Positions 12,789 to 60,518 of a stretch of DNA of 64,000 nt are shown one piece after another; the first letter of the stretch is position 1; every line of letters starts with the position of its first letter. A program made the translations under genes and the position numbers. The DNA lies in assembly GCF_000219125.1 (NCBI RefSeq), contig NZ_AFGF01000241.1, positions 1-64,000 of the forward strand. Reading direction: 5' to 3'. The notes beneath the pieces are model-generated. The model was not told the origin of the DNA, made no database searches, and was given only the letters and a program-made list of their open reading frames with translations. Origin of the DNA: Acetonema longum DSM 6540 (lineage in GTDB: Bacteria; Bacillota; Negativicutes; Sporomusales; Acetonemataceae).

Positions 12789-12908
12789 GACCAGGCCGCC
12801 GGAAGCCTCATTGGCGCTGTGTTCCCAGGGAGCGCTGTCATAGTACCTTTGAACGTACTGTCTGCACACTTCTTTGGGATGCCTAGCATCTGAGACTTTC
12901 TCGACGGC
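12789..12908. repeat. Degenerate copy of an intergenic inverted-repeat element
   Basis: About 120 bp upstream of surE. One end contains CCTAGCATCTGAG (12882-12894), identical over 13 bases to the reverse complement of one end of the larger element at 48.7-49.0 kb. The other end (GGACC then AAGCCTCAT) resembles that element's opposite end. A small internal hairpin AGTAC/GTACT lies at 12842-12859. It looks like an old relative of the same family. Confidence 0.5.
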
Positions 12909-12932
12909 CTGCAATAGGATTAACTAGTAAAC

Positions 12933-32644: not shown

Positions 32645-32660
32645 TGCCTCTCTCTCCTTA

Positions 32661-32712
32661 CGGGGCCGTTGAAAAAGGCCCAGATTCGATGCCGTACATG
32701 AATTTTGCACGG
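32661..32712. repeat. Short relic of the CGTTGAAAAAGGC intergenic element
   Basis: CCGTTGAAAAAGGCCCAGAT (32666-32685) lies between miaB and mutS. Its 13-base core CGTTGAAAAAGGC is identical to one end of the element at 48.7-49.0 kb (reverse complement), and both copies sit beside TCGAATCTGGG on one strand or the other. A small hairpin GCCGT/ACGGC follows. Only one end is recognisable. Confidence 0.45.
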
Positions 32713-32716
32713 CTCC

Positions 32717-34051
32717 TCAAATGCAAAGTTGGCCTTTTAACAGCCAGGTCTGAGCCTTGTCTATTTTCACGTTCAGAAGCTGTCCCGGCTCTTCCTGATC
32801 GCCTTTCTTCCAGATCACGATTTTATTGGTTCTGGTGCGGCCTGTCCAATAAGCCGCATCGTTCTTACTGGGTCCTTCGACTAAAACCTCCAGGTTTTTG
32901 CCTGTAAAGGTTTCGTTAATGGCCAGACTGATTTGATTTTGCAGATTCATCAACTGCTGCAGCCGTTCTTTTCTTTCTGCCAGGGGGACCTGATTCGGCA
33001 TTTGGGCCGCAGGTGTGCCGGACCGGGGCGAATAAACAAAGGTATAGGCTGCATCAAAGCGCATTTCATTAATAAAATCAAGAGTTTCTTCAAATAACCC
33101 GGCTGTTTCACCGGGAAAACCTACGATAATATCGGTAGTGACACTGGCATGGGGGAGTTTTTGCCGCACCTCGTCGATGAGTCTACGGTAATAATCAGTG
33201 GTATACCCTCGATTCATCTCTTTCAGAATGGTATCGCTGCCTGACTGGATGGGCAGATGAAAATGCTCGCACAGCTTTTTGCCGGAGCGTATAGCTTCAA
33301 TGACTTCAGCGTTCATGTCCCTGGGATGAGAAGTCATATACCGGATCCTCTCGATTCCCTCTATTTCGTCAGTGCTGTTTAATAAATCGGCGAAATCTAT
33401 ATCATCCTGTCGATCTTTACCGTAGGAATTTACGTTTTGTCCTAACAGAGTAACCTCTTTGACTCCTTTTTGCACCAAGACCTGAATGTCCCTGATAATA
33501 TCATTTTGGGCCCGGCTGCGCTCTCTGCCCCTTACATAGGGGACAATGCAATATGTGCAGAAATTATTGCATCCGTACATGATAGGAACCCAAGCCGAAA
33601 CCTGCCCATCCGCCGCAACAGGAATAACATGGTTGAAGTCGTCTGTCAATTCCTGTACCGCCAGTACCCTTTCCCGGGTTTCCAGCACCTGTTGAATATG
33701 AGCTAAGATTTGATGCACCACAAAGGTACCGGTTACAAAATCAATGTGCGGTGCTTTGCGAAAGAGGTTTTCCTTGTCTTTTTGCGCCAGACATCCGGTT
33801 ATGCCGATTATTAAATCCGGGTTTAACTGCTTCAGCTTTTTGAGTTCTCCAATTTTGCCGTAAATTTTTTGTTCCGCACTTTCCCGGACGCAACAGGTAT
33901 TTAAAATGATAAGATCTGCGTTTTCCAACTGGTAGACCTGTTCGTACCCTGCCTGGAGTAACTTTGCAGCCATCTGCTCGGAATCAGAGATATTGCCCTG
34001 GCAACCATAGGAAAGAATAATATATTTATGCGGCGGCTTGATTTGCTCCAT
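32717..34051 (-). CDS. miaB: tRNA-2-methylthio-N6-dimethylallyladenosine synthase
   Basis: Radical SAM methylthiotransferase acting on i6A37 in tRNA, 444 aa. The N-terminal UPF0004 domain has three cluster cysteines in YGCQGN, NTCCVRE and TGCLAQ. The radical SAM core has CNNFCTYCIVP (about 155), and a C-terminal TRAM domain follows. The first motif reads GCQGN where most MiaB have GCQMN. The SD (AAAGGAG) is about 12 bases from the ATG, longer than usual. It follows the DUF3870 gene and precedes mutS. Confidence 0.95.
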   Translation of the reverse strand: MEQIKPPHKYIILSYGCQGNISDSEQMAAKLLQAGYEQVYQLENADLIILNTCCVRESAEQKIYGKIGELKKLKQLNPDLIIGITGCLAQKDKENLFRKAPHIDFVTGTFVVHQILAHIQQVLETRERVLAVQELTDDFNHVIPVAADGQVSAWVPIMYGCNNFCTYCIVPYVRGRERSRAQNDIIRDIQVLVQKGVKEVTLLGQNVNSYGKDRQDDIDFADLLNSTDEIEGIERIRYMTSHPRDMNAEVIEAIRSGKKLCEHFHLPIQSGSDTILKEMNRGYTTDYYRRLIDEVRQKLPHASVTTDIIVGFPGETAGLFEETLDFINEMRFDAAYTFVYSPRSGTPAAQMPNQVPLAERKERLQQLMNLQNQISLAINETFTGKNLEVLVEGPSKNDAAYWTGRTRTNKIVIWKKGDQEEPGQLLNVKIDKAQTWLLKGQLCI

Positions 34052-48553: not shown

Positions 48554-48687
48554 CGCATTATTTAGGCAGAAAAAGGCTCTGCAAAGCAGGCTCTTTCTTG
48601 TCACTCAAAGTATGTGTCAACCGATGGCTTCTATACCCTCTCCCAAGAAACCCGTTACAACCTCATCTGTAGCCTCGAATCTGGGAG

Positions 48688-49023
48688 CGTTCAAAAAGGC
48701 TCAGATGCTAGGTAAGAGCAACGCCTGCGTTGTCATACTGAAGAATTTAGGTGACTTTTCGGCTTTTGAGAAAACATCCGCTACTACCTCTCTCCCGAAA
48801 AGTCACAAATTCTGATAGCGCGACGAGGACGGGCGTGAGACTGTACGTTTGGCAGGGTACGTCGATACTAGAAAGATGCGGAGCATCGTGAGATCAGGAG
48901 GAAAGCAGGTCGCTTTTCGGCGTAATCACAACAAAACTATCTGTTGCTTATGAACCTGAAAAGAGACGCTTTCCGAACGAGTCCGCCCGCAGGAGCAACG
49001 ACGCAGATGAGCCTTTTTCAACG
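48688..49023. repeat. 336-bp element with imperfect terminal inverted repeats
   Basis: CGTTCAAAAAGGCTCAGATG (48688-48707) and the reverse complement of 49004-49023 (CGTTGAAAAAGGCTCATCTG) match in 17 of 20 bases. Inside, 48743-48762 pairs with 48795-48812 in a long stem, and small hairpins (GATGC/GCATC at 48874-48887) follow. No convincing coding frame is present, so I take it as non-coding. It fills most of the 517-bp gap between YgiQ and the RodZ-like gene. Related pieces occur at 12.8 and 32.7 kb. Confidence 0.65.
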
Positions 49024-49028
49024 GTCCC

Positions 49029-49802
49029 TTAGCGGGCGGTGAAGTTTTTGACCACCACCTGCCCATTTCTTCCTTGGACACCTAAAAATTGTCCATTATA
49101 GGTCAGTTCCACGGCAGCCGCATTACCAAAGCGCAGTTCCATGGCCTTTTGTGCTTCCCAGGTCAGAATCTCTCCCCGTTGCGGCGTTCCCTCAAAAACC
49201 AGCTTTCCGTCTGCGGTTACCCGTGTCCAAGAACGGGTGCTGAACGTGGCGACAACCACAATCGGCTTAGCTGCCGGCTTAGGTTGAACCGCTGCCGGAG
49301 GCGTTGTCGGCGTCGCTGCTTGGGAAGGCTGTACCGGCGCAACAGGCGCAGTTTGAACTTGCGGCGGAACCGGCGGCTCAGGCTGTCCCGGCAGCTGTTC
49401 GCCGCCGGTTGAATCGCCCATGAGCCACCAGGTAGTCCCTCCGCCAACAATTACGATAAAAGCAGCGATAAACAGCCATTTTTTTATAGCATCCTCAGAA
49501 GAAGACTCAGAAACAGGTGTAACCATTTCACTGCCGGTGCCGGTGGCTTGCAGCTCAGGATCAGGCGGCGTTTGGCGGCTTTGCCGATACAGTTCGACGA
49601 ATTCAGCCCCGTTTAAGCCCAAGAAATTAGCATAATTGCGTATAAATCCTTTCAAAAAGACTTCACCGGGAGAAACAGAATAATTTCCTTGCTCAATGGC
49701 CTCTAAATATAATGCTCGAATGTTCGTGGCATTTTCAATATCCTTCAATGTTAGTCCCTTTTTTTCCCGTTCGGCGCGTAGCATTTCACCCAAAGATGGC
49801 AT
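49029..49802 (-). CDS. RodZ-like helix-turn-helix membrane protein
   Basis: 257-aa protein with an N-terminal RodZ-type HTH (about 5-70, GEMLRAEREKKGLTLKDIE), a single membrane segment (about 112-132) and a proline/alanine-rich stretch. It ends in a C-terminal beta domain like DUF4115. The set matches RodZ/YmfM, a cytoskeletal anchor linked to MreB and cell shape. The ATG at 49802 has AAGGAGG upstream and overlaps the end of mnmH by 17 bases. In B. subtilis ymfM stands in the same interval between spoIIIE and recA. Confidence 0.88.
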   Translation of the reverse strand: MPSLGEMLRAEREKKGLTLKDIENATNIRALYLEAIEQGNYSVSPGEVFLKGFIRNYANFLGLNGAEFVELYRQSRQTPPDPELQATGTGSEMVTPVSESSSEDAIKKWLFIAAFIVIVGGGTTWWLMGDSTGGEQLPGQPEPPVPPQVQTAPVAPVQPSQAATPTTPPAAVQPKPAAKPIVVVATFSTRSWTRVTADGKLVFEGTPQRGEILTWEAQKAMELRFGNAAAVELTYNGQFLGVQGRNGQVVVKNFTAR

Positions 49803-50859
49803 TAGCGTTACCTCCTTGTTTAATATAGGCAATAATCTGATCAGCAGCTTCATCCAAATTCTCAGCGCAAACACAATAGTCAAAATCAGTGAGACCCGCC
49901 GTTTCATATCCATACAGTGGATCATAATAGTGAAGCAGCAATTGCTCAACCATATCGGCAATCTGCCCTTGCAGGAAATTATCCCGCAGGGTGTTCGTCA
50001 GATGATTACCAAGCCGTTTCCGCAAGCTTTCCAGGCTGGCAAAAACCGCATCCGTCAAGTCCGGGCCAGTTTCCATATACTCATCCATCAGACGACGTGT
50101 CCGGGTTTTGATACTAGCCGTGACCAATATCCTGATTCCTTGCTGCATGGCCTGATGGAAAAAATCCGGCAAGTACACATTTCCAATTCGCTTGCTCTCA
50201 CACTCCACCACAATATAAGGCTCTGTATTCATGCTTTGAAGCTGACCTAAAAGATGAGCATCAAAATTTTGCGCTGTAGCCGGCTTTCCCAGACCCAAAT
50301 GGCCAAAAGCCGATCCCCGGTGATTTGCCAGTTGCTCCAGATCAATCATGGCCTGGCCCCTTGCGGCAAGTTTGGCCAATAAGGTTGTTTTTCCCACCCC
50401 GGTAGAGCCGCACAAAACAGCGATCCGAGGCTTGAGAGGAAATTTCTGCAGTTTATTCAGTATCTGATTGCGGTATGCTTTATATCCTCCTGACAGTTGG
50501 TACGCCTGGATTCCCATCAAATCAAGAATCATTACCAGGGATTTGGAGCGCATGCCGCCTCGCCAGCAATATACCACGATCGGACGTTCCCGGCAATTTA
50601 ATTCTTTTACCCGGTTGACGATATCCGATAATTTGCCGGAAGCGATAGCCAACCCTACATCCTTCGCTTCATCTGAGCCAACTGTTTTGTAAAGGGTCCC
50701 CACCCGTGCCCTCTCTTCATCGGAGAACAGCGGGATGTTAACGGCGCCGACGATGGCACCGTGCCGATACTCCGATGGCGAGCGCACGTCGATAAATAGC
50801 GGGAGGACATCCGGGGAAAACATTTTTTCACACTCTTCCAGTGAAATAACTTTAGGCAC
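49786..50859 (-). CDS. mnmH: tRNA 2-selenouridine/geranyl-2-thiouridine synthase
   Basis: 357-aa MnmH/SelU, which replaces sulfur with selenium in 2-thiouridine at tRNA position 34 through a geranylated intermediate. The N-terminal rhodanese domain contains the catalytic Cys in VVYCWRGGMRS (about 97). The C-terminal P-loop domain has GSTGVGKTT (about 150) and LANHRGSAFG. ATG with the SD weak or absent. Its presence implies selenophosphate supply elsewhere in the genome. Next gene downstream is the RodZ-like one, with which it overlaps. Confidence 0.92.
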   Translation of the reverse strand: MPKVISLEECEKMFSPDVLPLFIDVRSPSEYRHGAIVGAVNIPLFSDEERARVGTLYKTVGSDEAKDVGLAIASGKLSDIVNRVKELNCRERPIVVYCWRGGMRSKSLVMILDLMGIQAYQLSGGYKAYRNQILNKLQKFPLKPRIAVLCGSTGVGKTTLLAKLAARGQAMIDLEQLANHRGSAFGHLGLGKPATAQNFDAHLLGQLQSMNTEPYIVVECESKRIGNVYLPDFFHQAMQQGIRILVTASIKTRTRRLMDEYMETGPDLTDAVFASLESLRKRLGNHLTNTLRDNFLQGQIADMVEQLLLHYYDPLYGYETAGLTDFDYCVCAENLDEAADQIIAYIKQGGNANAIFG

Positions 50860-60267: not shown

Positions 60268-60321
60268 CACAGACAAGTCAAACAAGGAAGATTCAAAGTT
60301 GTACTTCCCTATATGACAACT

Positions 60322-60494
60322 GATGAGATAGCGCTCCACCAAAAAAATTTGGTGACAGTTTTGCACCTGTTTAATGCAAAACCAGTGCGACCGATCCGGT
60401 ATCATGCCGCACTTCGGCAGTCAACCCTTTCCTTTCAGATCATCAGCACCACTCTTCCTGAAAGTACTCTTGTTGCCCGCACCTCTACCTGCAT
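60322..60494 (-). ncRNA. Lysine riboswitch (L-box)
   Basis: The minus strand carries the L-box landmarks in order: GGTAGAGGTGCG, AAGAGTA, a helical domain ending CTGAAAGG, GCCGAAG, GGTTTTGCATTAAACAGGTGC, ACTGTCACC and GGTGGAGCGCTATCTCATC. This matches the B. subtilis lysC leader pattern closely. It sits between promoter and terminator of the dapB operon. High lysine would favour the terminator and lower Dap enzymes. It fills the only gap of more than 300 bases between dapB and the stress protein gene. Class call is firm; switch mechanism is inferred. Confidence 0.93.
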
Positions 60495-60518
60495 ATTCTT
60501 ATTTAATTGTATGTTTAT

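Follow-up and report, generated by a model that had tools for sequence, protein, structure and literature searches.

What kind of sequence fills the intergenic space at positions 48688 to 49023 of the window, the 64,000-nucleotide stretch of the Acetonema longum DSM 6540 genome analyzed here? A first-pass annotation described a noncoding segment with inverted-repeat ends and offered two possibilities: either the element is mobile but non-autonomous, or it belongs to a structured RNA family that has no name. Both halves of that proposal gained support: filled and empty TA sites, a strongly covarying fold, and copies in several phyla.

Extent and modular make-up of the element

The ends at 48688 and 49023 are terminal inverted repeats, imperfect as first described, with CGTTCAAAAAGGCTCAGATG and the reverse complement CGTTGAAAAAGGCTCATCTG identical at 17 of 20 positions. 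A 16-base end pattern with up to 3 mismatches occurs five times in the window (shuffle mean, 1.48; five matches were reached in 1 of 100 shuffles). A genome-wide search for the ends had been suggested; indeed, the whole genome (4.32 Mb, 295 contigs) contains 251 matches to the end pattern TTSAAAAAGGCYCA with at most one mismatch, versus 10 for a reversed control, indicating that other copies exist. Similarly, a 351-base stretch of the window gives at least 55 BLAST matches in its own genome (40 of 222 candidates scored). Our own-genome set consists of 75 distinct two-ended copies, and none (0/75) lies inside an open reading frame (ORF) of at least 100 amino acids, in agreement with the noncoding, intergenic character originally assigned. 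Related pieces had also been noticed at 12.8 kb and 32.7 kb of the window, and both are real. Positions 12790 to 12913 (minus strand) hold a complete short copy without modules (model R1, 51.9 bits, E = 1.3e-10), and 32660 to 32749 hold a palindromic remnant of end sequences (R1, 16.6 bits on the plus strand, E = 0.044; 13.1 bits on the minus strand).

An anchored consensus of the 75 copies retains the inner ends at 48688 and 49023 but shows that the interval between them is too narrow; the full element extends from about 48644 to 49031, on the plus strand, which is the best-folding strand in most copies. The right edge lies 8 bases past 49023, where the consensus GTCYCCTA ends at 49031. On the left, a weaker arm (consensus TAGGAGTCTGTTGCAAAACTCATCTGCRGCCTCGAATCTGGGAC) reaches about 44 bases beyond the inner left end to an edge near 48644. 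Its outermost part is the weakest, with little information beyond -34 in own-genome copies, and the left edge of the window copy is approximate because its outermost bases are degenerate. Edges are crisp in genomes G075 (Methylomirabilota) and G060 (Deltaproteobacteria), reading TAGCAGGCTGCTGAAAAA, about 18 bases, CAGGCTGCTCAAAAAGG, core, and CTTTTTCAGCAGCCTGCTA in G075. There are therefore two end-like repeats on the left and one on the right.

From its left edge, the window copy (all parts on the plus strand) begins with the outer left arm L1 (48644 to 48669), degenerate here, with the flank consensus TAGGAGTCTGTTGCAAAACTCATCTG and the same arrangement, with TAGCAGGCTGCTGAAAAA, in G075. The inner left end L2 (GTTC) forms the left strand of the terminal stem P1 (48680 to 48703) and pairs, with a conserved C.C mismatch, with the right end R (49008 to 49031), identified from the sequence and the right-end consensus. 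Internal loop A follows, its 5' strand (GATGCTAGG, 48704 to 48712) made of near-invariant columns in alignments A1 and A3 and covarying with the 3' strand (CAACGACGCAGA, 48996 to 49007), which was placed by the alignments and by this covariation. The variable stem P2 has its 5' strand region at 48819 to 48838 (alignment A1 and the window-copy fold) and its 3' strand region at 48984 to 48995 (alignment A1), and the apical stem P3 (GTACG ... GTACGT) occupies 48843 to 48862 (helix 5, 96% of cells paired). Two optional modules, each a small hairpin plus a long hairpin, were delimited from BLAST pieces and the module count: module A at 48713 to 48817 and module B at 48866 to 48983. In own-genome copies, the left arm GCCTCGAATCTGG (48670 to 48712 in the window) can also pair with CCAGATGCTAGGC in competition with P1, a possible switch.

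Modules A and B enter at fixed places in a core of about 120 bp. Copy sizes between the inner ends cluster at about 117, 220 to 235, and 331 to 344 bases, with some shorter or intermediate. The window copy has both modules; by BLAST of the window modules, 11 of the 75 copies contain both, 23 only A, 7 only B, and 34 neither, the last an upper bound because the BLAST cutoff misses diverged modules. Module A is thus present in 34/75 copies and module B in 18/75. The two modules look alike, but their similarity score of 32 equals the best of 500 shuffles. Elsewhere, head-to-tail arrays of three to four copies occur (L101 1239 to 1752 in G042, L098 1108 to 1614 in G045, and L136 2967 to 3345), and some copies stand directly beside tRNA genes (L135 3449 to 3657, Rfam tRNA match; L097 and L099, tRNA-like by eye).

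A conserved fold with covarying stems and an asymmetric strand

The long stem and small hairpins proposed for the interior are borne out by the window copy, in which each strand has a more stable fold than any of 100 dinucleotide-shuffled versions (z = -4.6 and -4.9), and by the hairpins of the two modules. The two strands of this copy do not differ in stability (-118.2 versus -118.3 kcal/mol). Structure proved to be conserved in relatives, in a common fold, in the pairing of 91% of alignment cells, and in the covariation of loop A. Forty-seven cores from the own genome, its relatives, and other phyla can be aligned end to end (alignment A1, which leaves out L138, L144, L151, L156, L170, L171, L176, and L177 for their odd lengths, together with L154, L099, L081, and some of the short copies from the own genome). 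RNAalifold places 29 pairs on this alignment, 23 of them with double changes, and the single sequences each fold into one long hairpin. The sequence of P2 can be unrelated while its stem is long and perfectly paired (L135, L153). In alignment A4, which is model based and leans toward its model (83 rows, 78 distinct), 91.2% of cells pair versus 33.4 to 38.4% when the partners are slid, and double-change cells number 382 versus 56 to 91; 0 of 500 shuffles reached the observed values.

Within loop A, the base after GATGC covaries with the middle base of AACnYnGCAG. Among 69 distinct non-own sequences, 67 obey one of three combinations (A-C 26, T-A 31, G-A 10; other, 2), and the mutual information is 0.87 against a maximum of 0.18 in 2,000 shuffles. 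The own genome is looser, with T-A in 51/63 copies yet four A-A present. Further, the plus strand is more stable than its complement in 151/175 copies: 59/75 in the own genome, 21/24 in relatives, 21/26 in others, 30/30 in G012, and 20/20 in G075 and G060. P1 contains more G.U than A.C in four of five sets (145/52, 55/22, 68/27, and 23/0); the delta-type set shows the opposite (37/73), though the ungapped register is invalid there. L093 1487 to 1614 (G017) and L094 1487 to 1614 (G026), which look like elements at the same, orthologous locus, have many differences in P1, mostly compensated, and a nearly unchanged interior.

Two other explanations bear on these stems. In the own genome, P1 reads AAAAAGG...CCTTTTT and lies at gene ends, as would a bidirectional intrinsic terminator consisting of an A-tract, a stem, and a T-tract. 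Relatives, however, lack the A/T tracts (GTTCAGAAAG..CTTTATCAAC in L083; TTAGAAATG..GCGTTTCTAA in L093) while keeping loop A and P3, and many copies lie within tandem gene pairs; we rejected the terminator reading because the tracts are not conserved, and consider it highly improbable. The second explanation is a conventional MITE belonging to a TA-targeting DDE insertion sequence (IS630 type or IS5-like). A transposase would then bind the ends TAGCAGG..GTTGAAAAA, and the hairpin would arise incidentally from the inverted repeats. Matched ends changing together would also yield the covariation in P1. Such a MITE does not account as readily for an interior structure conserved across phyla, for a P2 that pairs despite wholly different sequences, for the loop A covariation, or for the strand bias (151/175); a double-stranded substrate needs none of these.

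Filled and empty insertion sites

We searched joined flanks in nine genomes of one genus for filled and empty sites, the check for target-site duplications proposed in the first-pass annotation, and found both states at two loci with TA bordering the insert. At the L095 locus, G022, G027, and G025 carry the element, whereas G024, G021, G007, G023, and G017 have an empty site. The filled site in G025 reads CTCCT-TA-GAGACTG ... CACATC-TA-ACAAAG and the empty site in G024 reads CTCCT-TA-AAAAAG, a clean TA on both sides versus a single TA. At the L089 locus, G021 has the element and seven other genomes do not; the TA borders there have decayed to CA and TG. For a third locus, L087, the joined-flank search of the nine genomes found no ortholog. 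Empty sites keep the same neighbor genes as filled ones. Back-to-back copies have one TA in common (L037, L017), and TA terminates 28/74 right ends in the own genome. The element moves, and TA borders the insert, a 2-base border in which a true duplication is indistinguishable from an element end carrying its own TA. As in MITEs, there is no coding capacity, the ends are terminal inverted repeats, many copies are dispersed, and insertion is polymorphic at the two loci, with the borders at L095 in G025 as a TA target-site duplication would leave them.

These borders, the terminal inverted repeats (TAGCAGGCTGCTGAAAAA in G075), and the two end-like repeats on the left with one on the right are what the DDE-type MITE would predict. 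An IS630-type transposase, on the other hand, is missing where it would be expected: DDE_3 has 0 matches in the own genome, occurs in 9 of 60 genomes, and is absent from the highest-copy relatives. Together with the interior structure, this makes the DDE-type MITE unlikely. Y1_Tnp is found in 45 of the 60 genomes, with three matches in the own genome, and is absent (0) from G002, G016, G018, and G020, which carry 20 to at least 57 copies. We rejected IS630-type and Y1 transposases as mobilizers, as both are absent from the high-copy genomes G002, G016, and G020 and neither tracks the element; among these two transposase types, no mobilizing gene was found in the 60 genomes. G042 has 19 Y1 transposase matches, mostly with identical scores.

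REP and BIME units with their RAYT (Y1) enzymes are multicopy folded units thought to move single-stranded in trans. On that model, a Y1 transposase is expected in element-rich genomes, whereas several of the high-copy genomes studied lack Y1_Tnp. REP units are also unlike the window family in measuring 20 to 40 bp (excerpt of PMC3733652). As described in passages of PMC2229807, Correia/NEMIS, RUP, and other TA-bordered MITEs resemble the family in their small size, hairpin transcripts, and internal size variants. RUP is tied there to IS630-Spn1, and the own genome is without an IS630-type transposase.

Placement at stop codons and orientation to genes

Neighboring genes were called with a simple ORF caller (at least 100 amino acids), which flanked 74 copies on both sides. 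Tandem gene pairs surround 60 of these (both minus, 42; both plus, 18), with 11 copies between convergent and 3 between divergent genes. A stop codon is found no more than 25 bases from the right end in 45/74 copies and from the left end in 11/74 (P = 5e-6); similarly, in G012 the counts are 16/30 and 4/30. Thirty stop codons lie at exactly -3 (17 TAG, the element's terminal one) or -14 (13 TGA, in GTTGA). In the window, 49029 to 49031 (TTA) is the TAA stop codon of a RodZ-like ORF (49029 to 49961, minus strand), and the next minus-strand ORF, YgiQ-like, lies beyond the left arm; both names were read from translations. The better-folding strand is usually antisense to the neighboring gene. This orientation rule may come from selection, which would keep the stable strand out of mRNA, or from the insertion reaction. 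Replication-strand targeting was considered and set aside: the plus strand tends to be the G-poor strand (47/73 own copies and 20/30 in G012), in agreement with the replication strand, yet gene direction explains this equally well.

This placement could also reflect a cis-acting regulatory or processing RNA, which would act on mRNA stability between tandem genes and would have spread mainly by its usefulness, mobility being secondary. Such a role fits the 60/74 copies between tandem genes, the stop codons, and the preferred orientation; it fits the compensatory changes at the apparently orthologous L093 and L094; and it has a parallel in literature on the repeat ERIC and mRNA decay (excerpt of PMC2229807). 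It sits poorly with a copy number that, within a single order, leaps from 0 in some genomes to at least 57 in another, with a better-folding strand that is usually the antisense of the neighbor gene, and with element-free sites between the same neighbors. We regard it as doubtful, if somewhat less so than the DDE-type MITE.

Distribution among bacteria and database matches

With model R1, the family was detected in 43 of 60 genomes of the own class, including the own genome, at 1 to at least 57 copies each; genomes with zero copies occur in the same order as copy-bearing ones. Among 199 genomes drawn across the phylum, 11, the own included, carry it. The annotation had also suggested that such sequences occur in other bacterial groups, and copies were indeed found across several phyla: Deltaproteobacteria, Nitrospirae, Rokubacteria, and Methylomirabilota. 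The pattern used for this contig search has 17 specified bases and an estimated 30 or so chance matches, and loci with a readable core alone were used. Of 28 genomes reached through such loci, 20 are positive, with 4 to at least 124 copies each, a proportion that is no unbiased rate because these genomes were preselected by the end pattern; the eight negatives are probably chance pattern matches. In G012, 145 of 150 scored candidates are family copies.

A BLAST search with the delta-type core gave no match among plasmids (72,556 records), phages (50,697 records), or E. coli (5,426 genomes). Rfam gives no family match for the element at the gathering score and only chance-level matches at E up to 10, and a literature search with the end sequences returned nothing relevant. 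The window also contains a lysine riboswitch aptamer (60321 to 60495, minus strand; RF00168, 127.8 bits).

One published set of sequences is likely to belong to the family. The "predicted short RNA elements" of Geobacter metallireducens comprise 24 intergenic copies (Figure S1 of PMC2700814), one of them inside an operon, with similar sequences reported in Desulfotalea. Their central palindrome, GRCGTAGCGCTGCTACGCC, resembles GGCGTAC..GTACGCC of the family; the comparison was made by description and legend. The excerpted part of PMC2700814 proposes short RNAs and, there, no mobile or wider family. The window family occurs in the window's order and in several other phyla.

Comparison with ERIC

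ERIC, which has long served for typing, has been described from enterobacteria and Vibrio; internal insertions of about 70 bp occur in it, and it has no known mobilizer. Excerpts of the literature describe TA at the ends of ERIC (IRU, RU-1) with TA duplication (PMC2759123, PMC2229807), a single long stem-loop (PMC2267715), and mRNA decay, reported for Yersinia (PMC2229807). Its length of about 127 bp, TA borders, and single long stem-loop are likewise found in the window family, and the fold of ERIC from E. coli shares its topology. At seven ERIC loci, the same strand folds better in 7/7, and the same end lies 0 to 7 bases from a neighbor's stop codon in 4/7 (cusC, potI, and two Rahnella loci). 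Loop A in the published E. coli ERIC consensus (excerpt of PMC2759123) has the letters GCAAGGCGGC / GCCAACGCAGC, which occur in the delta-type family. ERIC differs in P1, ends, and P3 sequence and has no second left end. Its range, reviewed as Enterobacteriaceae and Vibrionaceae in the excerpted text of PMC10969869, is also unlike that of the window family.

Model R2, built from 22 mostly delta-type sequences with none from enterobacteria, was run with filters off. On 54.4 kb containing the seven ERIC loci, with 50 kb of K-12 as background, ranks 1 to 4 of 36 matches are ERICs, all on the plus strand (20.0, 18.0, 15.5, and 13.5 bits). These matches are weak, with a best E of 0.0016 under rough calibration, three of the seven ERICs at chance, and the top match (L292) aligned out of register. 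On 53.7 kb, a Kosakonia ERIC is at the top, and an in-register match to the cus ERIC reaches 8.1 bits. R1 with default filters detected none of the ERICs supplied to it, and a loop A weight matrix did not set ERIC apart, giving it 8.5 bits when family members score 26.5 to 42.8 and the background reaches 17.4. Despite these two results, the R2 ranking, taken with the shared topology, strand, and end placement, suggests that ERIC and the window family probably have a common origin, ERIC being a distant branch.

A model for the family

Beyond the first reading, the analysis shows that the element is modular, where it truly ends, and how it is placed at stop codons, and it points to a likely link to ERIC. 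We favor, with fair confidence, a non-autonomous mobile element with a TA target, moved in trans and with one folded strand under selection. An element measuring about 120 to 340 bp from one inner end to the other would insert at TA through the action of a trans-acting enzyme. Selection would maintain the fold of the plus strand, a long hairpin with P1, loop A, P2, and an apical GUAC stem, in which loop A keeps a fixed non-Watson-Crick base relation and P2 is free in sequence yet always complementary. Movement, TA borders, the fold with its strand bias and loop A covariation, and the stop-codon placement are observed; we infer from the whole that the enzyme recognizes the folded plus strand, as RNA or as single-stranded DNA. 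Insertion would often hit a stop codon at its TA, and the reading frame would then be closed by the end of the element itself, either with its TAG or with the TGA lying 11 bases further in, so that the gene survives. Copies would persist mainly between tandem genes, oriented so that the mRNA contains the less stable strand, as expected if the stable strand is selected against there.

A broader version of this model is tentative. It would place the family and ERIC in a bacteria-wide, structure-guided superfamily that moves as a folded single strand via loop A and homes, in a set orientation, to the TA of stop codons; if true, it would represent a new mode of non-autonomous transposition in bacteria. 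If ERIC is a twig of such an ancient superfamily, the core of loop A, free P2, and GUAC stem tells what the mobilizer must recognize, and the high-copy genomes would allow a hunt for it by gene content. The family itself is large and structured, shows covariation, and is not yet catalogued in Rfam; it also allows the link of TA insertion with stop codons to be put to the test.
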